Source: a virus. Taken from it: a stretch of DNA of 22,126 bases. Made by a program: the position numbers and the translations under genes. Each line of letters opens with the position of its first letter. Position 1 is the stretch's first letter. The notes under the pieces are model-generated. The model saw nothing but the letters and a program-made list of their open reading frames with translations. It searched no databases and was not told the DNA's origin. Where the stretch lies: the IMG/VR virus record IMGVR_UViG_3300008448_000743, positions 1-22,126 of that record, one strand, 5' to 3'. Of the stretch, positions 1 through 14,592 are shown piece after piece.

Positions 1-594
1 GTAATGCTTACCGCCCTCGGCTCCTAGAAATGCATAGAACCCAAAAGGCACACCGTCATTAAATTTACACCATGCATCTAATCTCTGTTGTGTTTCTATG
101 TCGTCTTGACGGTCTATGGTTCTGCTGGCTAATTTGCAACATTCTCTGAACGCTGATTTCCAAGTATTGAACGGATCGGTATTGAATGCCGTGACATTAC
201 TGATTTCTGGCATGGCTTTAAACCATAACGAAATGCTAGTGGTCATATCTGTCTTAGATACATCCATGGTCTGTGTAAGTTTTTTTGGTAACAATTTAAC
301 TCCGCCATATCCGTATTGTAAATCATTTATAGGATTTATGCTGCGCCAAACATGCACACATTCTATATCTTCTTTAGGAACAACATAATCAAAATTGAAC
401 GAGTCAACTATTTCTGCATCGCCGTCCACTACCCAAAACATCTTGGTAAAAGAGTTGTTAGCGGCCGCAATATGTGCTTGATGTATGCCTTTGACATCAT
501 GCACTCGTTGAGATCTAGGAAATCTAGATTTTAATTTTGCAAAGTTAGCATCCGCATTCGGTTCATTATAACTGATGAAAATAATATCGTACAT
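1..594 (-). CDS. Putative phage glycosyltransferase, GT-A-like (partial, 3' end outside window)
   Basis: This open frame runs off the left edge with 198 codons visible and no stop. The start ATG (592-594) shares one base with the TAA of the gene before it (TAATG), so it is probably translated by coupling. The N-terminus MYDIIFISYNEPNAD is a Rossmann-like first strand. A DGD at residues 57-59, after a hydrophobic strand (FWVV), is where GT-A enzymes carry the metal/nucleotide-sugar DxD motif. YGYGGVK (94-100) and PFNTWKSAFRECCK (141-154) recur at matching places in the neighbouring gene at 594-1475, so the two are tandem paralogues. I recall similar proteins from marine T4-type phages, annotated as glycosyltransferase or hypothetical. 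The sugar donor and acceptor are unknown. A virion protein or host glycan acceptor would be inference from its place beside the fibre genes. Confidence 0.75.
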   Translation of the reverse strand, partial: MYDIIFISYNEPNADANFAKLKSRFPRSQRVHDVKGIHQAHIAAANNSFTKMFWVVDGDAEIVDSFNFDYVVPKEDIECVHVWRSINPINDLQYGYGGVKLLPKKLTQTMDVSKTDMTTSISLWFKAMPEISNVTAFNTDPFNTWKSAFRECCKLASRTIDRQDDIETQQRLDAWCKFNDGVPFGFYAFLGAEGGKHY

Positions 595-1475
595 TATTGT
601 TTGAAATAAGTCAACCCTAAATTTATTGTTTCGTCGTATAGGTCTAAGGTATACTTGCTTTGTTTTGCATCCAACCACGGCCAATCTAAGCCTAACTTAG
701 TTCTTAAATGATAACCTAAATCTTGAGCATCGTGTTCTACATCGAAATGCTTAACTTTAGTTTCATAGATTTCTCTCAATACTTCAAAATCTCGAACCTG
801 GACATAGTCCCAGTCTGTGCAATTAGTCATCCATGTTCCCATGCGGGAGCCAAGAATAGCATATATCCCGTTGTCTTCGTGCATCCCAACGGTGCTCCAC
901 ATTCTCAATCTATGAATATTATGCCACCAAATTCGTTCTCGAATTTCTTGTGACGGAACTCGAACTCCATCTAACAATGTCATCTTGACACCTTCTCGAA
1001 ATCCTGCTCGCCATGCTTGAAACGGTGAGCCTGTGATGATGCTGTCACTATAAACTCGAGGAAAATTACGATAACCGTCCTCCCAACAAAAATCAACTTG
1101 AGCTCTATCGCTGACTGCATTTTCGTGTGTTCGCATGTTCAGAACAAATTTCTTATTCCAAATTTTTATTCCGCCATTACCATAACGTAGTCCATTGATG
1201 CTGTTGCGGCCGCACCACCCATATACCTGTATCTTAGGATCTGTCATGTCAAGATCAAGATCAAAAAATTTAGGATCTACAATGTTGTCTGCATCTATAG
1301 TTATAAACCAGTCAGTTGATGATAATTCAGCTGCTGCTTTATGTGCATGATCGCTGCCCTTAACTCCATGTACTCGTTTAGCCCAAGGAGCTTTGCCACA
1401 GAGATCTGCATAGTGCAATTCAGCATTTGGTTCGTCGTAGCTTAAAAATACTATGTCAAATTCAACTATTTTCAT
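594..1475 (-). CDS. Putative phage glycosyltransferase, GT-A-like (paralogue of the left-edge gene)
   Basis: The 293-residue protein starts with FDIVFLSYDEPNAE, very close to the start of the left-edge gene. It has a DAD at 61-63 after the strand WFITI, the expected DxD site for a metal-dependent nucleotide-sugar transferase. YGNGGIK (98-104) and PFQAWRAGFREGVK (151-164) match the paralogue, but the stretch between them and the C-terminal 130 residues (rich in W, H and R) differ, which suggests a different substrate. I chose ATG at 1475 because it forms an ATGA overlap with the TGA of the upstream gene, the junction seen elsewhere in this cassette. ATG at 1481 would add two residues (MS). Neither start has a good Shine-Dalgarno, which suggests coupled translation. 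No signal peptide or membrane segment is visible. The enzyme class is moderately supported; the target is unknown. Confidence 0.75.
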   Translation of the reverse strand: MKIVEFDIVFLSYDEPNAELHYADLCGKAPWAKRVHGVKGSDHAHKAAAELSSTDWFITIDADNIVDPKFFDLDLDMTDPKIQVYGWCGRNSINGLRYGNGGIKIWNKKFVLNMRTHENAVSDRAQVDFCWEDGYRNFPRVYSDSIITGSPFQAWRAGFREGVKMTLLDGVRVPSQEIRERIWWHNIHRLRMWSTVGMHEDNGIYAILGSRMGTWMTNCTDWDYVQVRDFEVLREIYETKVKHFDVEHDAQDLGYHLRTKLGLDWPWLDAKQSKYTLDLYDETINLGLTYFKQ

Positions 1476-2089
1476 CGACATTCAATCACATAATTTTTAA
1501 ATAATCTTCTGGTATATACACTGAATTTAGAATAATTAAAATCTGTTATCAACTTGGGTTTTCCAATGAGATCGTTAATTGTAACAGTAACTACTTCAAA
1601 GAGCAAGTTGGGATCGTTGTATTCAGTAATAAAAAATTGCATTTCAGTGTTGCCGTCCCACACAATATTACGTTTCTTTATCCCAGCTCTGGCTTTACGT
1701 GTTCCCCCGAATTCTGTAGACATTTCGATTTTTAAGACAGAAAGTTTCGAATCATACTTAATATAGATATCTGGTTTTTTTATTTCAGAATCTTTCTTAG
1801 AAATGATTCTATGCAAAACATCATCTATCTTATAAACACTTTTTATTTCTGACACTTCCAAGGTATTAGAATTCATATCAACTACACAATTATCAATTTT
1901 TATTTCTGCGTTAATTATAGATTCTGCTAATTCTTTATCTACAGTAATCTTGTGTTTTTGATCCTTGAAAGCATGACTAGGTCCTACACTGATTACTGCT
2001 CCAGTATCAGGATTAAACACTGCGACAAATTTTACAGGTGGTAATTTAAAATTTGTAAACCAATGATCAAAATCTTCTATTTTTTCCAT
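1472..2089 (-). CDS. Conserved-looking phage protein of unknown function, 205 residues
   Basis: I do not recognise a named domain. The protein is soluble-looking, with no signal peptide, transmembrane stretch or cysteine cluster. It begins MEKIEDFDHWF and then has alternating beta-type segments (VKFVAVFNPDTGAVISVGP; IYIKYDSKLSVLKIEMS), a short basic patch (TRKARAGIKKR) around residue 130, and a basic C-terminus. The start is firm: GAGGAG lies 5 nt before the ATG. That ribosome site lies inside the end of the upstream glycosyltransferase gene (13-nt overlap), and the 3' end overlaps the next gene by ATGA. Being locked between four putative sugar-transfer genes suggests an accessory role in the same process, such as acceptor binding. 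It could equally be a virion protein. That role is inference only. Confidence 0.7.
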   Translation of the reverse strand: MEKIEDFDHWFTNFKLPPVKFVAVFNPDTGAVISVGPSHAFKDQKHKITVDKELAESIINAEIKIDNCVVDMNSNTLEVSEIKSVYKIDDVLHRIISKKDSEIKKPDIYIKYDSKLSVLKIEMSTEFGGTRKARAGIKKRNIVWDGNTEMQFFITEYNDPNLLFEVVTVTINDLIGKPKLITDFNYSKFSVYTRRLFKNYVIECR

Positions 2090-2916
2090 GTTATCTCCTC
2101 TAGAATATTGATTATTTCATTATTGATTTTATCTTTTTCAACATAATGAACAATGTCATGCTGTTGATAATTTCCTATTTTAAGTTCGCCCTTTCGATTT
2201 AAATAAAAACCCACATGATCGCTCCAGCAGTCAGCAGGCCATGGCCAATTCTGTATCATAGGTTTCATATGTATTACTCGAGGAAACTCTAGAGGATATG
2301 CAATGTCATCGGTAATATCTAATATTTTAGCTGCTAATGCGAATGCCTCGTCTGTGCCTAGAACACGAGGCTTATGATTCGACAAAAAAGCATTTGAGAA
2401 CTCTACAGGATTTTTTATAATATCTCTTCCTAGGTTAAAAAATTCTTTAGTTATCTCGCTGTCTTTTTTAAAAAAAGTGTATAGACTGTAAAGGTTCGGT
2501 AAATTATTCTTTGTAAAAGTCTTACGATAATGTTGATCTACCACAGTTTCACCTCTGTAGGTGTAAGTTTTATTAGCTACATATAATTCACTATGCTCAA
2601 TAAAGTACTCTACCCAATGACTGTAATCTCGCATAAACAACATATCTACATCTAGACATACAGTATATTCGAATGGGGTAAGTTGATCCATCCATGATCT
2701 ACCATTCCAAAATGTTTCTTGACTCCATTCTATAACGTGATCAAAAACCCAACTGCTGGTTAAATCATTAAGTTTTTGTTTGTTATCTATTACCAAAGCA
2801 ACTTGATCAAACCCGGGTCTCTGCGTGTTTTTTATGCTTAGTGCTAATGCATATGCCAACTGTAGGTAATTCACAGTTTCATGTTCCGCTACGACTAGTA
2901 GATATCCAAACTTCAT
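2077..2916 (-). CDS. Putative glycosyltransferase (GT8/nucleotide-sugar transferase-like)
   Basis: The 279-residue protein begins with a beta strand (FGYLLVVAE) followed by an alpha helix with LAYALALSIKNT, as in glycogenin/GT8-like enzymes. TPFEYTVCLDVDMLFM (80-95) carries a DVD at 89-91 after a hydrophobic strand, the expected DxD metal/donor site. LGTDEAFALAAKIL (186-199) fits the second conserved acidic region of such folds. HMKP (216-219) and the later H-rich stretch QQHDIVHYVEK fit the C-terminal metal-binding histidine region. The next gene upstream, 2913-3773, shares the same frame of motifs (LTPxxxTxxxDxD), so these are a second paralogue pair. It starts with an ATGA overlap and lacks a strong Shine-Dalgarno. 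Enzyme type is inferred from motifs and architecture, not from a search. Substrates are unknown. Confidence 0.72.
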   Translation of the reverse strand: MKFGYLLVVAEHETVNYLQLAYALALSIKNTQRPGFDQVALVIDNKQKLNDLTSSWVFDHVIEWSQETFWNGRSWMDQLTPFEYTVCLDVDMLFMRDYSHWVEYFIEHSELYVANKTYTYRGETVVDQHYRKTFTKNNLPNLYSLYTFFKKDSEITKEFFNLGRDIIKNPVEFSNAFLSNHKPRVLGTDEAFALAAKILDITDDIAYPLEFPRVIHMKPMIQNWPWPADCWSDHVGFYLNRKGELKIGNYQQHDIVHYVEKDKINNEIINILEEITWKK

Positions 2917-3773
2917 ATCAATTCCAACAATCGATCACTATGTCTTACTATGCTCTGCTTATTCATTATATGAATATCCAGATTCTGTATTGAAGCTGCA
3001 CAATAGTTGTCATTTAATTTCGGGGATACCAGCACAGTCAATTTACTGGCATCTACTGAGTGTAATATATCCCTATCTAATAATGTTAAAACCGGAGGCA
3101 AACATCCTATTGGCAACTGTTCGAAACCTCCTAATATATGCCTAGCAACACTAAATGCAATATCGTTTCTATATTGTTTTGAATCAAATCTATATGTGTC
3201 GGCGTAGTATTGATAATGATCTTTAATATGGCTAACAAGATCAAAAAACATTTTAGAATATGTATTTTTTGTAAACATCACTGTAGTGGCCCAATACAAT
3301 TTAACGCCTACGTCAGAAACATATCGGTCATGATACCCCATTCGTTGATTGTCGTATATATCGTTGATAGATTCTCCAATCATAACATCACTGTCTATGT
3401 CCCAATACTCTGATAATCTATTGGAAAATATAAGAAAATCTGCGTCAATTACCAGTGTTCGTTGATAAGGAGTAAGATCGTAGGCAGAATTTCTATTACC
3501 ATTAATGAATTGTACCACACTGCGTTCTGTGCCGTCATACAATCCTCTAAAGTTATTTGACCCAGGTCTAGCAACTATGAAAATATTTTCAAATACTGTC
3601 TTGGCCTTTTCGTAAATCTTAGATTCTATCATCCAATCTACCGTGGTTTGATCAGTAACTAATGACGCAGGTTGTCCGAGATGTTTCTTGGCCAACCCTC
3701 CAGAGATAATCGCCATTAATGCATAATCTACTGTGCGATTATTATGAGCGTAGATTAATATGCCTTTGATCAT
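2913..3773 (-). CDS. Putative glycosyltransferase (GT8/nucleotide-sugar transferase-like), paralogue of the following gene
   Basis: The 286-residue protein opens with MIKGILIYAHNN followed by a helix (YALMAIISGGLAKKHL) that aligns in layout with its neighbour at 2077-2916. LTPYQRTLVIDADFLIF (100-116) contains the putative DxD (DAD, 110-112). YRNDIAFSVARHIL (201-214) matches the neighbour's GTDEAFALAAKIL region. The C-terminus ends in IHIMNKQSIVRHSDRL, where the shared fold expects metal- or donor-binding histidine. Both ends overlap neighbours by ATGA, and no strong Shine-Dalgarno is present, so it depends on translation from the 116-residue gene upstream. The pair probably arose by tandem duplication and then diverged strongly. 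Function as a sugar transferase is likely; the molecule modified is not known. Confidence 0.7.
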   Translation of the reverse strand: MIKGILIYAHNNRTVDYALMAIISGGLAKKHLGQPASLVTDQTTVDWMIESKIYEKAKTVFENIFIVARPGSNNFRGLYDGTERSVVQFINGNRNSAYDLTPYQRTLVIDADFLIFSNRLSEYWDIDSDVMIGESINDIYDNQRMGYHDRYVSDVGVKLYWATTVMFTKNTYSKMFFDLVSHIKDHYQYYADTYRFDSKQYRNDIAFSVARHILGGFEQLPIGCLPPVLTLLDRDILHSVDASKLTVLVSPKLNDNYCAASIQNLDIHIMNKQSIVRHSDRLLELI

Positions 3774-4120
3774 TGTTCTAGTAATTTTTCTACTGATCTA
3801 CTTTTTTTGAGATTTTGATCTTGTTCAAAATATTCATTAGTAGCTTCAAAATATCTATCAAAGCATTGATCTCTAAACGTTGTTAGATCTTCAATTAGTA
3901 TAGGATTTTCGTTACTATCTAGCAGTACTACTCCCCCGATTCTTCCTTTAATCAATAACAATTCTACAAAAGTCAAAAGTGTTTGATTAATATGAAACAA
4001 CCCACCATTATACCCTAGTGTTAATTTGGCCGAGATTTTTTCTTTTAGAATCTTACGTTGGATTGAAAACGTCTGCCGGTAATTAGCAAACTCTAGAGCG
4101 TTTTTAAGTTGATCCTGCAT
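3770..4120 (-). CDS. Small conserved phage protein of unknown function, 116 residues
   Basis: The protein is mostly helical and charged: an N-terminal helix (LKNALEFANYRQT), a central hydrophobic helix (TLLTFVELLLIKG), a short beta hairpin (GVVLLDSNENPILIEDL) and a charged C-terminal helix ending SVEKLLEQ. It resembles short proteins of unknown role that I recall from T4-type marine phages, usually near structural genes. The central hydrophobic stretch is short and amphipathic, so a membrane segment is unlikely. The start is clear: AAGGAG lies 5 nt before the ATG. This Shine-Dalgarno is the 3' arm of an inverted repeat (4124-4136 with 4164-4176), and a late-promoter-like sequence lies in the loop, so its translation may be switched by which transcript is made. 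It is the first gene of the overlapping glycosyltransferase cassette, so its control could govern the whole cassette. Confidence 0.8.
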   Translation of the reverse strand: MQDQLKNALEFANYRQTFSIQRKILKEKISAKLTLGYNGGLFHINQTLLTFVELLLIKGRIGGVVLLDSNENPILIEDLTTFRDQCFDRYFEATNEYFEQDQNLKKSRSVEKLLEQ

Positions 4121-4123
4121 GCA

Positions 4124-4176
4124 TTCTCCTTGATTATCTGCGCACTTTATTTAGTGGCTGAACTAATCAAGGAAAA
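4124..4176 (-). repeat. Inverted repeat covering the ribosome binding site of the 116-residue gene
   Basis: The 10-base arms TCCTTGATTA (4127-4136) and TAATCAAGGA (4164-4173) are perfect reverse complements. In RNA the stem extends by one G-U and two A-U pairs to 4124-4136 with 4164-4176, giving 13 pairs. The 3' arm in the mRNA holds the Shine-Dalgarno of the 3770-4120 gene, and the 5' arm sits just after the stop of the 4179-5177 gene. The 27-base loop also contains a small CACT/AGTG hairpin around AAATAA. There is no U-run after the stem on either strand, so this is not a standard terminator. Confidence 0.6.
4148..4155 (-). promoter_or_regulatory. Candidate T4-type late promoter (ACTAAATA)
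   Basis: On the minus strand the octamer reads ACTAAATA, two mismatches from the T4 late core TATAAATA. It lies 28 nt before the ATG at 4120 and inside the loop of the inverted repeat 4124-4176. Initiation roughly 6 nt downstream, as for T4 late promoters, would make an mRNA that lacks the 5' arm of the repeat and so has a free ribosome site. An 8-base match is weak on its own; spacing shared with two other sites raises it. Confidence 0.35.
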
Positions 4177-5201: not shown

Positions 5202-5209
5202 TATTTACA
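5202..5209 (-). promoter_or_regulatory. Candidate T4-type late promoter (TGTAAATA)
   Basis: In the 35-nt gap between two genes the minus strand reads TGTAAATA, one mismatch from TATAAATA, 25 nt before the ATG at 5177. The position matches that of the sites at 4148 and 15269. The downstream leader would be short, about 18 nt. Confidence 0.35.
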
Positions 5210-5212
5210 GAA

Positions 5213-6121
5213 TCAACTGCCACTAATAGCTGAAAGTGAATATGAGGGACTGGTTATTGCAAACGACCCCGATGGTTGCAGGCTGCCCGCGGCTTTCAGC
5301 TCAGAAACTGCCAGAGTAAGTGTGCCAGTCACTGTATCTCCAGGTGGAAATGATGCTCCTGAGGCCACATCTGGATCTACATATGTATCTGCTAGTGTTA
5401 CACGTAAGAACAATTGGGTCGCTGTACCTGTACTGTTGTTAGCTACGTTGGTTCTAGCTTCTAAAGTATATGAATTATTAGAATACGGACTGCTGGCAAA
5501 CTTGGTATAATAGGTTTGAAAAGTATTGGTCAATGTATAGTATGTTATAAACAGATCAGTATCAGCTCCAAAAGATCTAGTTCCGATAGAATTTAAGATA
5601 TTAACCCAGGCAGTATATTGAGGAGTTACAGTACCTCCGGTCAATGAAGGGGTAAATCTAATCTTACCGCCGCTGTTGAAAAAATATCTTGCCTCATTGT
5701 TGTTGGCAAACGTAACTGTAAGTGTTGCTGTAAGACTGTTCGACCAAGCAGATGTGTAGGTTCCGGAGGCTTTTGAAGTCACTACTGCTTGACTAGAGTC
5801 TATTCGAAATCTATTAGCTATAGCTGTTTCTAATAGGGAGTCATAGTTGGTGTTAGGTGAGCCTGCTCCGTATCCTATAGGGTCGCCCGCAGAGATTTGA
5901 ACTATGTTAGGCAATACCCCATCTTGATGCACTCGAATATTAACAATGTCGTATCTTAGTAGATCCCATTGAGCCTTTGTGATAGAATTTCCTTCGAATA
6001 CATCTGCACTCTGCACAGTCTGACCATATCCTCTGGTCGCTGATCCCGTGCCCATCAAAGACTGTGCTTTGTCCTGTATGGTTACGTACTGTGAAGCAAA
6101 AATCTGTGTACCGGATGTCAT
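5213..6121 (-). CDS. Phage virion structural protein (ARYFFNSGG family)
   Basis: The 302-residue protein has a helical N-terminal third (MGTGSATRGYGQ at 23-34; WDLLRYDIVNIRVHQDG at 52-68) and a beta-rich remainder. EARYFFNSGGKIRF (143-156) is the clearest family signature. Later marks are TPQYTAWVNILNSIG (166-180), SSPYSNNSY (210-218), NNSTGTATQ (228-236), DTYVDPD (245-251) and a C-terminus SPSYSLSAISGS. It is the upstream member of a tandem pair with 4179-5177. Its ATG begins one base after the TAA of the fibre gene 6123-7922, with no strong Shine-Dalgarno, so it is probably translated by ribosomes finishing that gene. This suggests balanced production with the fibre. A virion (tail/baseplate accessory) role is inferred from the family and context. 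Confidence 0.75.
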   Translation of the reverse strand: MTSGTQIFASQYVTIQDKAQSLMGTGSATRGYGQTVQSADVFEGNSITKAQWDLLRYDIVNIRVHQDGVLPNIVQISAGDPIGYGAGSPNTNYDSLLETAIANRFRIDSSQAVVTSKASGTYTSAWSNSLTATLTVTFANNNEARYFFNSGGKIRFTPSLTGGTVTPQYTAWVNILNSIGTRSFGADTDLFITYYTLTNTFQTYYTKFASSPYSNNSYTLEARTNVANNSTGTATQLFLRVTLADTYVDPDVASGASFPPGDTVTGTLTLAVSELKAAGSLQPSGSFAITSPSYSLSAISGS

Positions 6122-6122
6122 G

Positions 6123-7922
6123 TTACAGCACCACTGATTGTATTAATTTTACATCTTCGTTGTCACTGGTTTCCATGGCTACAGCAAATACATCTAATCT
6201 ATCTTGCGCTACCTGTGCGCAACCTTGATCACCGGCAACTAATCTATCTCCTTTACGTACTGATCCTTTGACCTTGATTGGTACTCGACCCTTAAGTGCC
6301 ACGTAAACCCCGCCTTCTAGCTCACTGTTCATCATGTATGCTGGATTTTCACTGATCACTCCTATGGCTAGTTCGCCGTAGCTAGATGCGGTAACTTCGG
6401 CTGGACCCCCTATGACCATTACAGTGCCAACTTCGTATTCTGTGTCAGCTAGATATTTCTCTGCGAGATCTGCATACCGTGCTGATGTAGCGGTTCCTTG
6501 GAATAATACCGCTGAGATATTACCGCTGGAGTCTCTAGCCGCAATGCTATATGCGGTAGCAGTAAGTCTAGCGGTTCTGTACTTGGTACTGGTAGTTGCA
6601 TCATTCCATGCAGGATCTACTACAGCATCAGTTTTATCAATGAATGTCTTGTCAGTCTTATCTGCGATACCTACAAATTGGTTAGCCAGTATATTTCCTG
6701 AAGTATTTCTTACAGGTATAGTAGCTATTGCAGTACCTGGTACCGTAGCACTAGGATCTAGATCATTTAGCTTACTGGCATTAGTGGCTGCAGAAGCTGT
6801 ACCTGTAACTGATCCGGTTAAGGTTCCTACTATATTGGCTCCCGCAAATCCAATCTGTTTAGTTGCGGCATTTATCATTACTGTGTTATCTGAGGCCAAC
6901 ACATTGCCTGTATGAACTCCTAGAGAATTTCCTGTGACATTTCCTACAAGATTGCCAGTATGTGTGGTAGCGTAAACGTTGCTCCAACGACCTCCGTTGG
7001 CACCTAATGAGTAGGCATTGTCATTGCCAGGCACAACTCCTGTGCTGGTAATCACCGCGATGTCTCGTTCATCGGTAGTTTCAGTTACAGTAATGCGGAA
7101 TGTTATAGGGTTTCCTAGTCGATTTTCAACAATCACTTCGTCACCACCTTCAACACGCAGTCTAAAATCGTTACCATCACCTACAGTTAGGCCTGGATCA
7201 TAAAATTGTACTTCACCAGTGAATGAATTTTCACCTTGTTTGAGGTATTGATCTGCAGCAAAACCACCAAGGCGAGCTGCATTATTTGCTGTGCCCCACA
7301 TCACATAATCATCAGTACTTACTCCAGACTGAGATTTGGCCAAGGTAAACCCTTTCTTTATGACCGTGAAGTCATCGATTGTATTCTGTGCGTTGTCGAG
7401 GGTAAATGATGTTTTACTAAAAATTCCTATGACCTTGTCATCTGCTATTATTTTAAGTATAGTATGTGGACCCACCGCTGTGCTGACCGTTCCTTTAACC
7501 ACTGCTGCAGACACTATAGACGATCCTAGATCGGGACTGGCTTCTGGTCCAATAAGTGCAAACTCTGTGCCTGTCCATGCATACAATTGTTTGGCAGCAG
7601 AATCCCACCAAAAGTCACCAGTGCTTAAACCGCTGGGCGCAGTGGTGCTGACTTCTGCACCGCCTGCTAGTTTAAATCGAGAACCATCATAGAATTTTAA
7701 TTTTTTATTAGCACTATCGAACCAGATTTGCCCTGTGATTACCTTGGGAGGAGCAGTAGTGTTAGAAAAATTCTCTAAAAGATGTAGAAAGTTTTCATTC
7801 TGAACTTCGCCGTATCCCGCATAGTTTTTACCTACAAATCTTAAATCTGAGGTGGTGTCTATGGTCCCGTCTTCTACAGATACAAAAAAAGCACCGTTAA
7901 ATTTATCTACTTGATATGCCAT
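6123..7922 (-). CDS. Tail-fibre-like protein with shared N-terminal module and a possible self-processing C-terminus
   Basis: Of 599 residues, 1-128 are the module shared by four genes here: DGTIDT (18-23), NYAGYGE (33-39), NENFLHLLENF (42-52), GQIWFDS (64-70), TGDFWWD (101-107) and FALIGPE (121-127). The middle (200-480) is a repetitive low-complexity shaft with VTG/LTG turns and two related RNTSGN/RDSSGN units (405-410, 463-468). From about 480 a compact globular end starts: YADLAEKYLADTEYEVGTV (483-501), GVISENPAYMMN (521-532), VALKGRVPIKVKG (541-553) and KGDRLVAGDQG (557-567). That end recalls C-terminal domains that trim or chaperone trimeric phage fibres (peptidase G2-like), but I see no proven catalytic residue. 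GGAG lies 7 nt before the ATG. It is probably a side fibre or baseplate-attached spike used for host contact. Confidence 0.8.
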   Translation of the reverse strand: MAYQVDKFNGAFFVSVEDGTIDTTSDLRFVGKNYAGYGEVQNENFLHLLENFSNTTAPPKVITGQIWFDSANKKLKFYDGSRFKLAGGAEVSTTAPSGLSTGDFWWDSAAKQLYAWTGTEFALIGPEASPDLGSSIVSAAVVKGTVSTAVGPHTILKIIADDKVIGIFSKTSFTLDNAQNTIDDFTVIKKGFTLAKSQSGVSTDDYVMWGTANNAARLGGFAADQYLKQGENSFTGEVQFYDPGLTVGDGNDFRLRVEGGDEVIVENRLGNPITFRITVTETTDERDIAVITSTGVVPGNDNAYSLGANGGRWSNVYATTHTGNLVGNVTGNSLGVHTGNVLASDNTVMINAATKQIGFAGANIVGTLTGSVTGTASAATNASKLNDLDPSATVPGTAIATIPVRNTSGNILANQFVGIADKTDKTFIDKTDAVVDPAWNDATTSTKYRTARLTATAYSIAARDSSGNISAVLFQGTATSARYADLAEKYLADTEYEVGTVMVIGGPAEVTASSYGELAIGVISENPAYMMNSELEGGVYVALKGRVPIKVKGSVRKGDRLVAGDQGCAQVAQDRLDVFAVAMETSDNEDVKLIQSVVL

Positions 7923-7954
7923 TGATATACTCCGCTAATCATTATTATTACTTA

Positions 7955-8311
7955 TCAAACTATGCGAGCGGACGCGGCTTGGCGCTGCTGCTCGAGCGTT
8001 ATGTACTCTTCATCAGATAGACTGGTAGTAATATTCAGTGCTTTTTGTCGCAGATGTCGAAGAACTTTCCAATCTGTGCTATTTAAAAATTCACGTTCTT
8101 GCCCGTTTGCCAGTTCCTGTGCCTTTTGTGTTGCTACATTTGCAGCTACAGCTATTATAGTTCTACTGGCAACATCAAAATTATGTGTTTGCGCTCTAAG
8201 CTGTTCGGCTTGAGAATCTGTGATTTCCTGCACACTAACAGTGCTAGGAACACTGGGTAGATAATTTAATAGCGCAACTACGGTGTTGTTTTCTATACAG
8301 ATATAATGCAT
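7955..8311 (-). CDS. Tail fibre assembly chaperone-like protein, 118 residues
   Basis: The N-terminus (HYICIENNTVVALLNYLP) is a short beta-rich part, the middle is a long helix (AVAANVATQKAQELANGQ), and the C-terminus has the pattern REFLNSTDWKVLRH (73-86) followed by TTSLSDEEYITLEQQRQAA (95-113). That C-terminal pattern is common in tail fibre or tail assembly chaperone proteins of many phages. I chose ATG 8311 because GGAG (8318-8321) precedes it by 6 nt. An ATG four codons upstream (8323) lies inside the previous gene and has no such site. It sits directly between two fibre genes, as fibre chaperones usually do. Its likely task is to help trimerise one or both fibres, and it may or may not remain in the virion. 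Confidence 0.75.
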   Translation of the reverse strand: MHYICIENNTVVALLNYLPSVPSTVSVQEITDSQAEQLRAQTHNFDVASRTIIAVAANVATQKAQELANGQEREFLNSTDWKVLRHLRQKALNITTSLSDEEYITLEQQRQAASARIV

Positions 8312-8313
8312 GA

Positions 8314-10596
8314 TTAACTCCAAATGGCCAAATAGTTTGCTGCTGGGGTGCCATTCTGTTCTGTGTTCTGAACATATACTCTGATTCTATCGCTGAGATA
8401 TGAATACTGGCATCTTAATCTGTCATTTCCATCTACTCCACCGGCAAAAGCTATAAAATGTATAGAAGGAATAAATCCTACAATATTTGCCATGCTTTTG
8501 CCTGCAGGAGGAAATACATCAAAAAAGTTTGCGCCATTGTTAAAAGATCCCACTTGATTAGTAAATCCCGAGGTGCTAGACTGTTGGCCGCTGACGAAAG
8601 TGTACTGAGGTAACCTACTATCTACATAAGTTTTGGTGGTAGCATGATTGTCATTCACTGGGGCACCGACCAGTGTAAGATAACCAGTCATTGTATCGCC
8701 AGATTTAGATACTCTTGCAGTATCACTAGCTGTGATAGTAATGTTTGTGGTACCGTTGAATGCAACACCGTTAATGGTTCTTGCAGTTTGTAATTGTGTC
8801 GCAGATCCTGCGTTTCCGGACACTGTCCCAGAGACATTACCTATTAAGTTAGCAGTGATCGTGCCTGCGGCAAAATTGCCACTGGCGTCACGTGCTACAA
8901 CTTTGCTGACAGTATTGGTGGAGGTAGCATCTACAGCGATTGTTGCATCAACGATTCCATCGTAACTGGCTATAGCACCACTGGTGCTGGTATTAACTAG
9001 TGTAAGAAATGAACCCTTACGCAAAGGTTCTCTACTGATTGAAGCCCATGTAATTGAGCCTGCTTGTGCAGTTAATACATACCCAGCTGTGCCTAGTCCC
9101 AGCATTGATGTAGTTCCAGCAGCGGTTTGGAATGGAATTGCTCCTGCACCACCACCTGCTATATTTGTAGCTGTCGTGGCCAAGGTTGCTGTAGTTGCAT
9201 TCCCTAAGAAATTGTTGGCATAAATGTTGTTGAATTTATATCCTGTGATTCCAAGATTAGTTGTGTTGTCGCCTAGTACCGCAGGTGCATTAGGACCTCC
9301 TAACGAAAGTGCTGTGGCAGCATCTACGAATGATACATCGGGTCCGCTTGATCCCATATCAAAATTAAGTGTGCCTGTACTGGATCTTACGGTTGGCCTA
9401 CCAGAATCAACAAACATCTTAAGCTGACCAGAACTACCTATATTAACTCCGCTATCAGTAACATTTAAATTGATTAATGTTCCTAATTGTTGCAAACTAC
9501 TTTGTATTATGGTAGAGTTTAAAGTATCACCGGTTAGTGTATCAGCTGCTGCTGTTACAGTAATATTGCTGGTGCCATTGAAATTCACACCATTAATCTG
9601 TCTTGCTGTGGCCAACTGTGTAGCAGAGTTTGCATTTCCGGTGAGTGTGGCTCCTACAAATGTATTAGCCTGTACAATATTAAATGAACTTGTACCAGAG
9701 CTAGCAATAACATTACCAGTGACATTACCGACAAGATCCGCTGAAATAGTGCCTGCTGAAAATCCCCCCTCTGAATTTCTAGCTACTAATTTACCTACAA
9801 CATTTGAGGGAGTAGCATCTACACTCCATGTGGTCTCTGAACTTCCGTCAAAATCAGAACCAAAAATGTATGTGCCTCGAACTAATTTGTTTGTTGTAGA
9901 AGATTTTATAGTGACATTTTGTTGGCCGTCAAAAGGCGTGCCGTTGATATTCCTAGCAGTACTCAACCTATCTGCACTGGCAGAATTGCCTGTTATATCG
10001 CCTTTGATCTTAGCAGTGTTTGAAAGATTAATACCTGCTATCAACGTATTTTCAAACCCGGCCACTGAATTAGAAGAATTTATAGAAAACGCCTGTGCTG
10101 TACATATAGCAATAGCTGTTCCATTCGTTTCTAGAATTATTACAGGTTTGGGGTCTCCTACAGAATCGTCTAATGAGGTAGCTCTGGCTCTGGTTATTCC
10201 GAACCCGGCCACTGCTTCGGGACCAATAAATGTCCAAGCAGAACCTGTGTAAATCTTAAGTTGATTAGCGGCAGTGTCTAACCACAGTGCGCCTGCGTTA
10301 ATATCCGCAGGAGCGGTTGCACTTAAAATCGCAGCACCTATTGGATTCCAATTTGTACCATCATAAGCATAGGTCAAATTGGTAGTGGTATTAAACCAAA
10401 TCTGCCCCTGCAGTGGTCTTGAAGGTGGAAATTCATTGGCAAAATTTTCCAATAAAAACACAAAGTTTTCGTTCTGTGTTTCACCGTAACCCACATAGTT
10501 TCTACCAACTAGCCCCAGACTAGTAGAGGTATCAATAGTTCCATCTTCTAGAACTATTAACTGTGCCCCACTAAATTTATTTACTATATAGGCCAT
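8314..10596 (-). CDS. Tail-fibre-like protein with internal shaft repeats
   Basis: The 760-residue protein starts with the shared module (DGTIDT 18-23, NYVGYGE 33-39, NENFVFLLENF 42-52, GQIWFNT 64-70, WTFIGPE 121-127). The shaft has three copies of a TAR-INGxxFxG unit at about 213-230, 330-347 and 605-622, a repeat common in long tail fibres. Two longer duplicated units also occur: VARNSEGGFSAGTI (271-284) against VARDASGNFAAGTI (567-580), each followed by LxGNVxG. ATTKTYVDSRL (652-662), the fibre 'ATKxYVD' hinge, leads to a C-terminal domain of about 100 residues rich in aromatic residues, possibly the receptor-facing tip. AGGAG lies 8 nt before the ATG, and the assembly-chaperone-like gene follows after 2 nt. 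This makes it the best candidate for a main host-contact fibre. Confidence 0.85.
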   Translation of the reverse strand: MAYIVNKFSGAQLIVLEDGTIDTSTSLGLVGRNYVGYGETQNENFVFLLENFANEFPPSRPLQGQIWFNTTTNLTYAYDGTNWNPIGAAILSATAPADINAGALWLDTAANQLKIYTGSAWTFIGPEAVAGFGITRARATSLDDSVGDPKPVIILETNGTAIAICTAQAFSINSSNSVAGFENTLIAGINLSNTAKIKGDITGNSASADRLSTARNINGTPFDGQQNVTIKSSTTNKLVRGTYIFGSDFDGSSETTWSVDATPSNVVGKLVARNSEGGFSAGTISADLVGNVTGNVIASSGTSSFNIVQANTFVGATLTGNANSATQLATARQINGVNFNGTSNITVTAAADTLTGDTLNSTIIQSSLQQLGTLINLNVTDSGVNIGSSGQLKMFVDSGRPTVRSSTGTLNFDMGSSGPDVSFVDAATALSLGGPNAPAVLGDNTTNLGITGYKFNNIYANNFLGNATTATLATTATNIAGGGAGAIPFQTAAGTTSMLGLGTAGYVLTAQAGSITWASISREPLRKGSFLTLVNTSTSGAIASYDGIVDATIAVDATSTNTVSKVVARDASGNFAAGTITANLIGNVSGTVSGNAGSATQLQTARTINGVAFNGTTNITITASDTARVSKSGDTMTGYLTLVGAPVNDNHATTKTYVDSRLPQYTFVSGQQSSTSGFTNQVGSFNNGANFFDVFPPAGKSMANIVGFIPSIHFIAFAGGVDGNDRLRCQYSYLSDRIRVYVQNTEQNGTPAANYLAIWS
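8318..8321 (-). promoter_or_regulatory. Ribosome binding site that decides the start of the assembly-chaperone-like gene
   Basis: GGAG on the minus strand lies 6 nt before ATG 8311 and downstream of the alternative ATG at 8323, so it can serve only the shorter start. It overlaps the last sense codon and part of the stop region of the upstream fibre gene, which fits coupled translation. Confidence 0.6.
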
Positions 10597-10616
10597 TTAT
10601 GCCGCTCCTGTGTTCA

Positions 10617-12467
10617 TTATGGTGGTAAAGTAGAATCTGTCTGCCAGGTCCATGCACCTGACACAATTTGAAAGGTTTTAATAATTCTAGTAGTAGAAAC
10701 ACTTGCTGCTGCGATTGTTGCTGTAGGAAATGAAATACTAGTCACTGCCAACGAACTACTGCCAGATAGATCAGTGAGGAAAGGATTCGTGCTGATACTG
10801 GGAGGTAATGCATTTATGGCTAATGAGGTGCTGGAAGGATTTATCAGAGTACACAATATCCTTGCATAAGTGCCACTTCTAAATTCCGCTACAGGTGCAA
10901 GATTATTTAATACATTATTAATAATGTATGTGTTAGATTTACCATCAGATAAATCCATGCTGAATATCAATGGCCGAGATTCTATGGTATTGTCCACATA
11001 TTCTTTGGTCGCAGCATCCTGTTGGCTAACAGGATCCTGCATGCCTGTGATTCTCGGCGAGCCTATCAACGCAACGTTTCCTGTGCCGTCTGGTTCGAGT
11101 TCAATATCAAAATCTGTTGATACTGTGCTGATCCTATGATTTTCTAATCGCATCTGCGTCACTGGCGGTATTCCAGGACCAACGTTGACTACGTTTTGCG
11201 TACCAAATGCTGTAACACCCGGAATACTGGTAATTGCACTTCCAAGGCTATTGCCATCTATGACCTTGACTCCACCTATCTGTAACTGTTTACCTACTGC
11301 CAGATTTAAATCTTCGCTGACGTCAAAAACTCCAGTAGGAGGTGGCCCCTCGCTAGTGGACCTATACACTATTTCTTTGTCGTAGGAAGAAGAATCAGCA
11401 CCGGTTGATCTAATTATGATACCAGCACCAGTAGCCGTGGTTTCACTGGGTGCTGCCACATTGGCTAATGTTAGTGTTTTATCTTCAATGGTAACATTAG
11501 AAGTATTGATAGTGGTTGTTGTTCCTTCTACGGTGAGGTCACCTGCTACCACCAAACTGCCACCAACATTCATTGTGCTATCAATTTTTCCCGAATATAT
11601 ATCGACGATTCTTGAACTGGAATCTATTGCTATGGCATTTTCTAGATCGAGACCTTTTCTAACCTTTAGGAATAGATCTTTGTCGCTGGCGAAATTGGAT
11701 ACTTCTATATCTCCCGAGCTCACCAAGAGATTCATCTGATTGCCTGATCCTATCACAATACCGGCATCTACACCAACAGATACCTGTCCATTAAAAGTAT
11801 TTGATGTGTCTCTTCGGGCATATGTGGTGGCTACCGCACCCCCTAACTGTTCGGAGTTGGTGCAGGTTATACGGAATTTTATGTTAGCTAATGTCCCTGC
11901 GTTAAACCCAGGTTCTATATTACCGCTGAATCCGATGATAGCTATTTTAGGTGTAAAACTGTCTTTGGCAAAAATTCCTAGTAATATACCGTTGTTATAA
12001 AGATATGTTACAACTCTAGTTTGATTCAGGGTGTCTAAAATGCTGTCAACTTCTAATCCGCTTTTACCTTGTGCTGTGGAATATGCAGGTCCGATCAATA
12101 TGGGCTGTGTTCCATCGAAGAAATATAACTGCGCACCTACATCATCGAACCACAGGTCACCTATGCTTAATGTAACAGGCTGTGTGCTAGAAACAGTGGC
12201 AGAACTCACTGGAATGAAAACAGATCCATTATACACCTTAAGTTTGTTTTCTGCACTATCAAACCAAACCTGACCCTTTAGTGGGTGTAGCGGTCGTGTG
12301 GTGCTGGCAAAGTTTTCTAGAAGTTTCACTAGATTTTCATTAAATGCTTCACCAAATCCACTGTAATTTTTGCCTATCAAAGTAAGGTCAGTGGATAATG
12401 TGTCTATCTGCCCATCGGCCACTGTGGCTACTATAGTTCCGTCAGTTTTGTTTATTTGATATGCCAT
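10617..12467 (-). CDS. Tail-fibre-like protein with DAATKxYVD hinge
   Basis: The 616-residue protein has the shared N-terminal module (DGQIDT 18-23, NYSGFGE 34-40, NENLVKLLENF 43-53, GQVWFDS 65-71, GDLWFDD 103-109, LIGPA 124-128). The middle has a known fibre unit: GGSLVVAGDLTVEGTTTTIN (302-321) followed by TIEDKTLTLAN (326-336), as in many cyanophage fibre proteins. TGMQDPVSQQDAATKEYVDN (474-493) marks the hinge before the C-terminal domain of about 120 residues, which is beta-rich, S/T-rich and ends WTWQTDSTLPP. AGAGAA (12473-12478) precedes the ATG by 5 nt. It shares a layout with the other three fibre genes but no C-terminal similarity that I can see. A structural fibre role is well supported; its receptor is unknown. 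Confidence 0.82.
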   Translation of the reverse strand: MAYQINKTDGTIVATVADGQIDTLSTDLTLIGKNYSGFGEAFNENLVKLLENFASTTRPLHPLKGQVWFDSAENKLKVYNGSVFIPVSSATVSSTQPVTLSIGDLWFDDVGAQLYFFDGTQPILIGPAYSTAQGKSGLEVDSILDTLNQTRVVTYLYNNGILLGIFAKDSFTPKIAIIGFSGNIEPGFNAGTLANIKFRITCTNSEQLGGAVATTYARRDTSNTFNGQVSVGVDAGIVIGSGNQMNLLVSSGDIEVSNFASDKDLFLKVRKGLDLENAIAIDSSSRIVDIYSGKIDSTMNVGGSLVVAGDLTVEGTTTTINTSNVTIEDKTLTLANVAAPSETTATGAGIIIRSTGADSSSYDKEIVYRSTSEGPPPTGVFDVSEDLNLAVGKQLQIGGVKVIDGNSLGSAITSIPGVTAFGTQNVVNVGPGIPPVTQMRLENHRISTVSTDFDIELEPDGTGNVALIGSPRITGMQDPVSQQDAATKEYVDNTIESRPLIFSMDLSDGKSNTYIINNVLNNLAPVAEFRSGTYARILCTLINPSSTSLAINALPPSISTNPFLTDLSGSSSLAVTSISFPTATIAAASVSTTRIIKTFQIVSGAWTWQTDSTLPP

Positions 12468-12480
12468 TCTTGTTCTCTAA

Positions 12481-14592
12481 TTAAAATAACGGTGGTCCAG
12501 ATCTAATAATATAATTTATTGTTAGAAATGGATTCATAATACCTATTGGTGTACTCAACGTAGTCAGAGCTGGTTTTTTTATTCCGCCTGAATCTTTTAG
12601 ATACTGTGCTTGGCCAGGAGCAGTTGGTCCTAGTCCTGTTGTCGCTGCAGGATCGATAGTTGTGGTCACAGCTACAGCCGAATAATCTTGTGCACCAGAA
12701 CTTAATGTATGACTATGCTCTGGTAAATTTGCTAGTGTGAGTGTTGCCGAACTCTGACCGGCATCGCCTCCTAGGGTAGTGGCTTTTACGTCGGGCACAC
12801 GTCCTGTCGTACCTCCACCGGCATCTACAAATCCGCCTGTGACGATTGGCACTGTTCCGGCGTTGTCCATATTGTCCTTGCCTAAGGCAAATCTTCCTCT
12901 AAGATCCGGCAGTCTAAAAGTATTCACTCCTATTAAAACTGCTATACCATTATATGTTGTACCTATGACGTCATATAGGGCTGAAAATTTTGTTCTTTCA
13001 ACTTCCGATCCGTCGCAAAATAAAAATCCGTATGGTGCGGTTGCGCCGGCATAAGGAATGATTCCGCCGATTGGAATACCTAGATCTCCTACGAATGTGT
13101 CTCTAGTCTGTTTTAATAAACCCGATGATGCTAATGCCGCTTCACTGGCCCTATATGTAAGCACAAAATCAGTAGGCTTAGATACATTCGGAAAGGGTTG
13201 ATCTTTACTTACAATGATATTAGCAGTCAACGATGTATTGAATATTTTGGTGTAACTTCCTGTCTGCCCGTCAAACTGCACAGCTGGACTTATCACATCG
13301 CCAGTCAATTGAAAACTGGTGATATTAGTAAGACTGGTAGCGGTGTTGGCATTACCGCTGATATTTCCAGACAAAATACCTTGTATATCGTCTGCTATGA
13401 TTGTTTTGGCTCTGATTGTCTTCCAACGTTTAAGATTAGTACCTAGATCATACAGTTCGGTAGTCTTTGGTTGTAGATTATTGACCTGTGATGTACCTGT
13501 GATATCGACTCCGTCGCCTACTATGAGATTTTTAGAAATAGCAGCACCGCCGGCAGTCCTTAAACTTCCATTGTTTAGATTAGTGCTGGCAGTATTGTTT
13601 GTGATTATGATTGAACCAGTTAAAGTAAGGCTGCCGTCAATGTCTAGGGCCTGGTTAGGACTTGCCTGATTTATACCTACTTTGTTGTCCACTACTTTTA
13701 AAATTGTTGACGGAATGCCATTCCGATTGGTTTGAATATCGATAGAACTACCAGCCGCACTGTTGTAGATTTTTGCTGCTGTGGATGTAGTACCAATATT
13801 GAATGTGCCATCGACACCGACCGTAACCCCGTTATTGTTTCTTACATTAAATGCAAAATCAGTAGTATTAATAGTGTTAGATCTTAGGAACTTTCCCGAT
13901 TCTACTTCAACTCCGCCAACACTCAATGCATTAGCCCGAGTGGCGGTTCCGAATAATATTGGTTCAAACCCCCCAACAAATTCTGCTATTTCAGGCGCCG
14001 TACTTGGGTTAGATATGTTAATTCCAGAACGTACAACATCGAAACCAGATATAATGGTCTTAGGAGTAAAGCTGTCCTTGCTAAAAATAATAACTGGTAT
14101 ATCTGCAATGTAGAAAACAAGAATAAATCTATCAATATTATCGGAATCTGCGATCTTTTCTACCACAGGACCGTATCGTAATCCGTCAACAGCACTTTCC
14201 GATGGTCCTACCAATATCCAACGTGAGCCTGTGAAAATTCTTAGCTGTTGATTAGTAGTGTCTACCCATAATTCTCCTACCTTACTAGACTCTACCGATG
14301 GCTCGCTTACACCTTTTTGTATGCCTGAAGCTGCTTTCCATGCAGTATTATCCCATATTTGAAGAACTCCGTCAGTACTATTATACCAAAGCTGCCCTTC
14401 TACAGGGTTTATTGGTTCATCAGCGGAAGCAAAATTTTCTAGTAAAGCCAAAAAGTTTTCTGCAATAATCTTGCCATACCCCGTAACATTTCTACCCGGA
14501 AACGCTAGACTCGTATCTGTACTAGAAGTATTATCAAACACTGTGATGGGTGTTTTATTTTCTTTATCTGTAAAATTAACTGAATATGGCAT
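12481..14592 (-). CDS. Short-tail-fibre-like protein with phage tail collar domain
   Basis: The 703-residue protein has the most diverged copy of the shared N-terminal module (GRNVTGYGKIIAENFLALL at 33-51, GQLWYNS 66-72, GELWVDT 106-112, WILVGP 125-130). KVGINQASPNQALDIDGSLT (304-323) is a unit often found in fibre shafts. IPIGGIIPYAG (506-516), PYGFLFCDGSEV (520-531), NTFRLPDLRGRFALGKDNM (557-575), LPEHSHTL (622-629) and MNPFLTINYIIRSG (686-699) together form a tail collar domain (Pfam PF07484), as in the T4 short tail fibre gp12 and similar tips. HSH fits the metal-binding histidines seen in such tips. GAGGT lies 8 nt before the ATG, within the end of the upstream gene. Its likely role is a baseplate short fibre or fibre tip for irreversible binding. 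Confidence 0.88.
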   Translation of the reverse strand: MPYSVNFTDKENKTPITVFDNTSSTDTSLAFPGRNVTGYGKIIAENFLALLENFASADEPINPVEGQLWYNSTDGVLQIWDNTAWKAASGIQKGVSEPSVESSKVGELWVDTTNQQLRIFTGSRWILVGPSESAVDGLRYGPVVEKIADSDNIDRFILVFYIADIPVIIFSKDSFTPKTIISGFDVVRSGINISNPSTAPEIAEFVGGFEPILFGTATRANALSVGGVEVESGKFLRSNTINTTDFAFNVRNNNGVTVGVDGTFNIGTTSTAAKIYNSAAGSSIDIQTNRNGIPSTILKVVDNKVGINQASPNQALDIDGSLTLTGSIIITNNTASTNLNNGSLRTAGGAAISKNLIVGDGVDITGTSQVNNLQPKTTELYDLGTNLKRWKTIRAKTIIADDIQGILSGNISGNANTATSLTNITSFQLTGDVISPAVQFDGQTGSYTKIFNTSLTANIIVSKDQPFPNVSKPTDFVLTYRASEAALASSGLLKQTRDTFVGDLGIPIGGIIPYAGATAPYGFLFCDGSEVERTKFSALYDVIGTTYNGIAVLIGVNTFRLPDLRGRFALGKDNMDNAGTVPIVTGGFVDAGGGTTGRVPDVKATTLGGDAGQSSATLTLANLPEHSHTLSSGAQDYSAVAVTTTIDPAATTGLGPTAPGQAQYLKDSGGIKKPALTTLSTPIGIMNPFLTINYIIRSGPPLF

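Follow-up and report, generated by a model that had tools for sequence, protein, structure and literature searches.

A fibre-linked cassette of four putative GT-A glycosyltransferases, built of two evolutionary modules, in uncultured large T4-like phages

To our knowledge, glycosylated virions have been documented for very few tailed phages. In Corndog/Che8-type mycobacteriophages, glycans were observed on the capsid and the tail tube (Freeman et al. 2023, as summarised in PMC12619734), and the A064R protein of PBCV-1 acts on capsid glycans in chlorovirus self-glycosylation (PMC9614988). The moraphages, which are large aquatic uncultured phages with predicted Bacteroidota hosts, carry four core groups of putative glycosyltransferases (GTs) whose acceptor is not established (PMC12619734). 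Here, we describe a cassette of four putative GTs (GTa1, GTa2, GTb1 and GTb2) and two further proteins (P116 and P205), which lies behind fibre genes in the IMG/VR record IMGVR_UViG_3300008448_000743. The complete record of 22,126 bases is referred to as the window.

Similar to the mycobacteriophage system, the GTs of this cassette are phage-coded (relatives of the window carry gp23 capsid genes), and GTa2 weakly resembles a Che8 GT; however, glycans have been seen there, whereas here four GTs of two other families are located behind fibres in a T4-like lineage. PBCV-1 likewise builds the glycan of its own virion with virus-coded GT-A enzymes, and its A064R is the best Foldseek match of GTa2, but it is a eukaryotic algal virus with N-glycans on an icosahedral capsid, and the match is at the level of the fold only, at 16-18% identity. 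The moraphages resemble the carriers of the cassette in being large, aquatic and uncultured and in having four putative GT groups, but they form a separate lineage, and their GTs are likened to the present ones by description only. GtrABC serotype conversion and T4 DNA glucosylation also employ phage GTs, but in six long records of relatives (127-280 kb, possibly incomplete), on which the genome-content searches were performed, neither GtrA nor the hydroxymethylase family was found.

Based on the results presented below, we give a probability of roughly one half to the reading that this late four-GT cassette glycosylates a virion protein, most likely the fibre encoded just upstream. The main genes all lie on the minus strand. 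In the order of transcription, a 2,282-residue protein is followed by P223, F703, F616, F760, F599, F302, F332, P116, GTb2, GTb1, P205, GTa2, GTa1 and the end of the contig. The features from the cassette to the nearest fibre genes are as follows.

1-594, minus strand: GTa1, GT-A-type glycosyltransferase, second of pair a; 198 residues seen, C-terminus cut by the contig end; DGD and YGxGGxK conserved
594-1475, minus strand: GTa2, glycosyltransferase of predicted GT-A fold (AlphaFold2 model); DAD motif with D61/D63 invariant
1472-2089, minus strand: P205, conserved protein of 205 residues separating the two pairs; sequence searches of Pfam, PHROG and PDB gave no match
2077-2916, minus strand: GTb1, GT8-like glycosyltransferase; D89xD91 invariant; profile match to GTb2
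2913-3773, minus strand: GTb2, GT8-like glycosyltransferase of predicted glycogenin fold; D110xD112 and H268 invariant
3770-4120, minus strand: P116, small conserved protein at the head of the cassette
4148-4153, minus strand: TAAATA motif, T4-late-promoter-like, 33 nt before P116
4179-5177, minus strand: F332, fibre/structural-type protein, paralogue of F302
5202-5207, minus strand: TAAATA motif upstream of F332
5213-6121, minus strand: F302, fibre/structural-type protein
6123-7922, minus strand: F599, fibre protein with a C-terminal peptidase-G2-like/tail-fibre region

The cassette genes overlap by 4 nt (P116/GTb2), 4 nt (GTb2/GTb1), 13 nt (GTb1/P205), 4 nt (P205/GTa2) and 1 nt (GTa2/GTa1), and a gap of 58 nt separates P116 from the fibre gene. 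The original prediction, which was made from the DNA letters alone, gave the motifs and coordinates correctly, the open reading frames (ORFs) being open on the minus strand, and the genes that it named are real. On the other hand, P116 has to be added as a sixth cassette gene, and the GTa1 is incomplete because the GTa1-side end of the window is the end of the contig.

The relationship within pair a is evident from the sequences. GTa1 and GTa2 are 33% identical over 209 residues (blastp E 1.2e-28; 5.4e-27 in a separate run), each carries the DGD/DAD, YGxGGxK and PFxxWxxxFRExxK motifs, and D61, D63, Y98, G99, G101, G102, K104, F159, R160, E161 and K164 do not vary across 64 GTa1/GTa2 sequences, in agreement with the paralogy first proposed from these motifs. 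Structure models were obtained for one member of each pair, GTa2 and GTb2. In the GTa2 model (predicted local distance difference test, pLDDT, 86.8), the first ~150 residues match GT-A proteins with VIA Z values of ~10-11 over ~140 residues, a level at which nucleotidyltransferases such as MobA also match (10-11). The best Foldseek match is domain 1 of A064R (E 1e-5), and the Che8 GT Q855A2 is weakly similar (E 4e-4). The GT-A fold with DxD that is expected of GT2 is therefore seen in pair a (the fold in the GTa2 model, the DxD in the alignment), although the GT2 cut-off (PF00535, 23.3 bits) is reached neither by GTa2 (13.3) nor by a distant relative (16.4). The complete GTa1 of relatives has 232 residues, and the window GTa1 is the single-module form. 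In about half of the relatives, GTa1 is fused to one to five N-terminal degenerate GT-A half-modules (MFWxIWxD ... HxFKNGxxYDGxCLFPK), whose copy number differs among phages (for example, L181:7566-9848, L167:11203-13134 and L070:8887-10560). These extra modules derive from GTa1's own fold, with WxW-type residues in place of DxD, and no such protein was found by tblastn in 50,697 phage records.

The members of pair b are only weakly similar as single sequences (E 0.08). Profile-profile comparison, however, matches GTb1 and GTb2 over 188 columns with 95% probability (E 2.9e-8), and therefore the common LTPxxxTxxxDxD, on which their paralogy had been based, is true homology; the same kind of comparison gave no similarity between pairs a and b. 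The GTb2 model (pLDDT 88.9) has a whole-chain GT-A fold, with Z 16.4 and a root-mean-square deviation of 3.5 over 214 aligned residues for human glycogenin-1 and Z 14.1 for LgtC. The GTb2 segment LTPYQRTLVIDAD aligns with glycogenin LTQYSKCVFMDAD, with the DxD over the glycogenin DAD, and thus the GTb motif corresponds to the GT8 DxD region. D110/D112 are invariant in 46 GTb2 sequences, and D89/D91 in 41 GTb1 sequences. GTb2 is therefore like glycogenin and LgtC in its fold and in the place of its DxD, but unlike them in that the identity is ~14% and the invariant H268 lies within DIHIMNK instead of the canonical GT8 metal-binding His motif HxxGxxKPW (compared by sequence). Because no Pfam GT8 match (PF01501-type) was found at E up to 1 for GTb2, nor any GT8-model match for GTb1 relatives, the pair is regarded as GT8-like in predicted fold and not as a member of PF01501, GTb1 being placed in this group by its profile homology to GTb2 only. 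Neither pair has a Pfam or PHROGs match above cut-off (that of GTb2 to PHROGs is at chance level), and a pattern scan of bacterial genomes found no GTb2 relatives. In general, the GT-A folds of both models and the DxD conserved in both families support the proposal of four transferases, whose catalytic activity and donor sugars are inferred. All four lack hydrophobic stretches typical of membrane proteins.

Several hundred relatives are present in IMG/VR (511, 177 and 181 confirmed matches in three scans), and the order fibre-P116-GTb2-GTb1-P205-GTa2-GTa1 is near-universal in ~100 distinct uncultured relatives. At 102 distinct GTb2 loci, in a sample biased toward close relatives, GTb1 was present in 93/101, P205 in 93/98, GTa2 in 93/97, GTa1 in 84/84 and a fibre gene upstream in 57/57. 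P116 always lies between the fibre and the GTs, and precedes GTb2 in 85 of the 86 loci with room for it. Contigs binned into marine metagenome-assembled genomes, at 25-51% identity, keep fibre-P116-GTb2-GTb1-(divergent ORF)-GTa2, with radical SAM genes next in most of them; in the marine relative L214, P116 was not detected by tblastn. The association of cassette and fibre genes thus holds even in deeply diverged phages. Each of the six long records carries a gp23 capsid gene, and the window itself has none. Because the gp23 of one of these records is closest to that of jumbo phages such as Phosso, Vibrio phage 2.275.O and PA5oct (72-77%), we conclude that the window comes from an uncultured relative of this group. 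The carriers, large T4-like phages from lakes and seas, are uncultured, and within the limits used, tblastn with GTa2, GTb1, GTb2, P205, P116, distant GTa2/GTb2 and the twitch radical SAM protein gave no match in the 50,697 phage records, in which a gp23 control gave 2,500.

A T4-late-promoter-like TAAATA precedes P116 at a constant spacing of ~33 nt in 75 of the 78 distinct upstream sequences, and is never seen before GTb2, GTb1, P205 or GTa2 (77 to 94 upstream sequences each); it also occurs upstream of 31/81 F332 relatives. In two long records, TAAATA lies about 10-59 nt before a same-strand ATG in 69 of 224 cases, compared with 3-8% for other AT hexamers, and a gp55-like late sigma factor is encoded in all six long records. 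Similarly, ATAAATA late promoters were predicted before structural genes in the jumbo phages CBB and GAP32 (PMC5259590), and NATAAATA was predicted as a late promoter in S-PM2 (PMC2984593). Late expression of the cassette would be in keeping with this pattern. In the window, TAAATA is rarer than expected (9 versus 30 in shuffles), and of its nine copies, two are found a short distance before P116 and F332 and one at the start of P223 (15269-15274). In many relatives (L186, L144, L017 and others), the TAAATA before P116 is followed by the near-palindrome AAACTGCGCAGTTT, which is degenerate in the window and may act as an operator or form a 5' hairpin.

The original prediction treated the genes as a single cassette; in evolutionary terms, two modules are found. 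The pairwise identities of P116, GTb2, GTb1 and P205 correlate mutually (r 0.84-0.91; P205 with GTb2, 0.91) and co-vary with those of F332/F302 (r 0.66-0.83). In contrast, the correlation of GTa2 is only 0.18-0.32, even though the GTa2 and P205 genes overlap; its stronger conservation leaves GTa2 less variable, which depresses its correlations. In addition, a 13-member GTb clade (support 99) is rejected by the GTa2 data (log-likelihood difference 172; p-AU, from the approximately unbiased test, 0.003), where the test rows include L092 (without it, p is 0.053 for GTb) and the GTb clade p value is somewhat optimistic because the clade was named from identity tables of the same genes. GTa2 and GTa1 also occur without GTb or fibres, fused into one protein in L211:3051-4637 and side by side, followed by a radical SAM gene, on a 494-kb Bdellovibrionia contig (L240:7980-9625), and therefore they constitute a separate unit; GTa2 alone is found in Rhodobacterales chromosomes (L228:7986-8945). 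As judged by sequence comparison, P116-GTb2-GTb1-P205 is inherited together with the fibres, and GTa2-GTa1 is exchanged independently. Behind GTa1 lies a variable island (L006:9567-15313, L027:9537-15853 and L070:10538-16521), in which an N-terminal twitch radical SAM protein (NF033640) is present in 6/6 long records in 1-5 copies, and an NDP-sugar dehydrogenase, a dTDP-glucose 4,6-dehydratase-like protein and a 2OG-Fe(II) oxygenase occur in single loci. Further island ORFs appear SGNH-hydrolase-like by eye and have no family match.

A virion-protein acceptor is favoured because of the late-type control, the cytosolic nature of the enzymes and the deep linkage to fibre genes; the weak resemblance in fold between GTa2 and virus-encoded GTs (PBCV-1 A064R and the Che8 GT) was also counted for it. 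The cassette would encode four cytoplasmic GT-A enzymes that are expressed late and assemble a short glycan stepwise on a virion protein, likeliest a fibre encoded just upstream. In a plausible order, the GT8-like pair linked to the fibres would prime and extend the acceptor together with P116 and P205, the exchangeable GTa pair would add variable outer sugars, and the donor sugars may come partly from the downstream island (twitch radical SAM, NDP-sugar dehydrogenase and 4,6-dehydratase-like proteins). Several observations weigh against this reading. The correlation with GTb2 drops with distance (F332 0.81, F302 0.72, F599 0.55), so that the co-variation may be mere physical linkage; and GTa2, the most conserved enzyme, is uncoupled from the fibres, its bacterial homologues being found on chromosomes that lack fibres, either singly or accompanied by radical SAM genes. 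A role at the host surface would fit the sugar genes of the downstream island as well. As for the promoter motif, no TAAATA lies directly upstream of the gp23 gene in the loci checked, and for this reason its role stays inferred. The original preference for virion proteins over DNA is supported as far as the GT-A folds, the fibre co-occurrence, the late-type motif and the failure to find T4-type DNA glucosylation enzymes in the six long records go; whether the acceptor would be a fibre, another virion protein or a host glycan goes beyond what sequence can decide.

In the main rival explanation, which we consider fairly unlikely, the GTs modify a host-surface glycan (lipopolysaccharide core or capsule) late in infection and block the adsorption of competing phages, or of the phage's own progeny, to the infected cell or debris, and the fibre neighbourhood reflects co-selection with receptor modification. 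Such co-selection would equally yield the fibre co-variation, lipopolysaccharide core is accessible to cytoplasmic GTs, the island contains sugar-nucleotide and twitch radical SAM genes, and the bacterial GTa2 homologues adjoin other glycan genes (labels by eye). However, the promoter is of the late type, whereas exclusion by surface change usually pays early. Furthermore, neither a PF01943 flippase (control positive) nor GtrA (0/6; control positive in 7 genomes) was found in the six long records, which argues against classical surface conversion of the O-antigen type, without proof since these records may be incomplete.

Returning to glycosylation of the virion, an extended version, which appears unlikely, is that the cassette together with the twitch radical SAM, 2OG-Fe(II) oxygenase and sugar-nucleotide genes constitutes an exchangeable island for post-translational modification in jumbo phages, by which fibre proteins undergo chemical alteration and glycosylation with outer sugars that can be swapped. 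Such an island would be the glycan counterpart of fibre-tip switching. Alternatively, the two pairs may have separate jobs, GTb2/GTb1 with P116/P205 acting on fibres and GTa2/GTa1, as part of the swappable radical SAM/sugar island, on another glycan. The uncoupling of GTa2 (0.18-0.32 against 0.84-0.91 inside the b block), the GTa2 rejection of the GTb clade and the GTa2-GTa1 units found on their own are all consistent with this division, but in distant relatives, too, GTa2 is found behind GTb1/P205, which suggests joint work of both pairs, and we regard separate jobs as distinctly improbable. Glycosylation of modified DNA bases, as by T4 alpha-gt and beta-gt, is a common role of phage GTs and would fit a T4-like lineage, but it is highly improbable given the late timing, the fibre neighbourhood, GT-A folds where the T4 DNA glucosyltransferases are GT-B, and the lack of any thymidylate-synthase-family hydroxymethylase (PF00303) in the six long records (0/6; control positive in 9 genomes), which argues against T4-type glucosylation but, the records being possibly incomplete, does not prove it. 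Tet/JBP also had no match in these records, a weak result, as the Tet control was silent too.

If the virion-protein reading is true, virion glycosylation would be a hallmark of a lineage and not an oddity, shared by hundreds of uncultured large T4-like phages, and the cassette would supply a defined enzyme set together with candidate acceptors. That the GTa module is exchangeable suggests that the outer sugars diversify, which would bear on adsorption and the evasion of bacterial defences.

The 205-residue protein placed between the pairs by the original prediction is real and conserved among relatives, and its matches in PHROGs were at chance level. Divergent ORFs hold its position in distant relatives; in the marine relative L207 (6658-7992), the protein at this position has 444 residues, with an insert that is weakly CBM_5_12-like (E 0.009, below cut-off). 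Among the fibre genes, F332 and F302 are paralogues (34%, E 3e-54), and F599 matches the phrog_19602 tail fiber protein (E 5e-18). The richness of the fibres in S, T and N, which had been taken to favour glycosylation, is non-diagnostic for O-glycosylation, the fraction being 0.32 in F332/F302 and 0.22-0.31 in other structural proteins. Finally, F599, F760, F616 and F703 (window 6123-14592) have a common N-terminal domain of ~200 residues and differing C-terminal parts.

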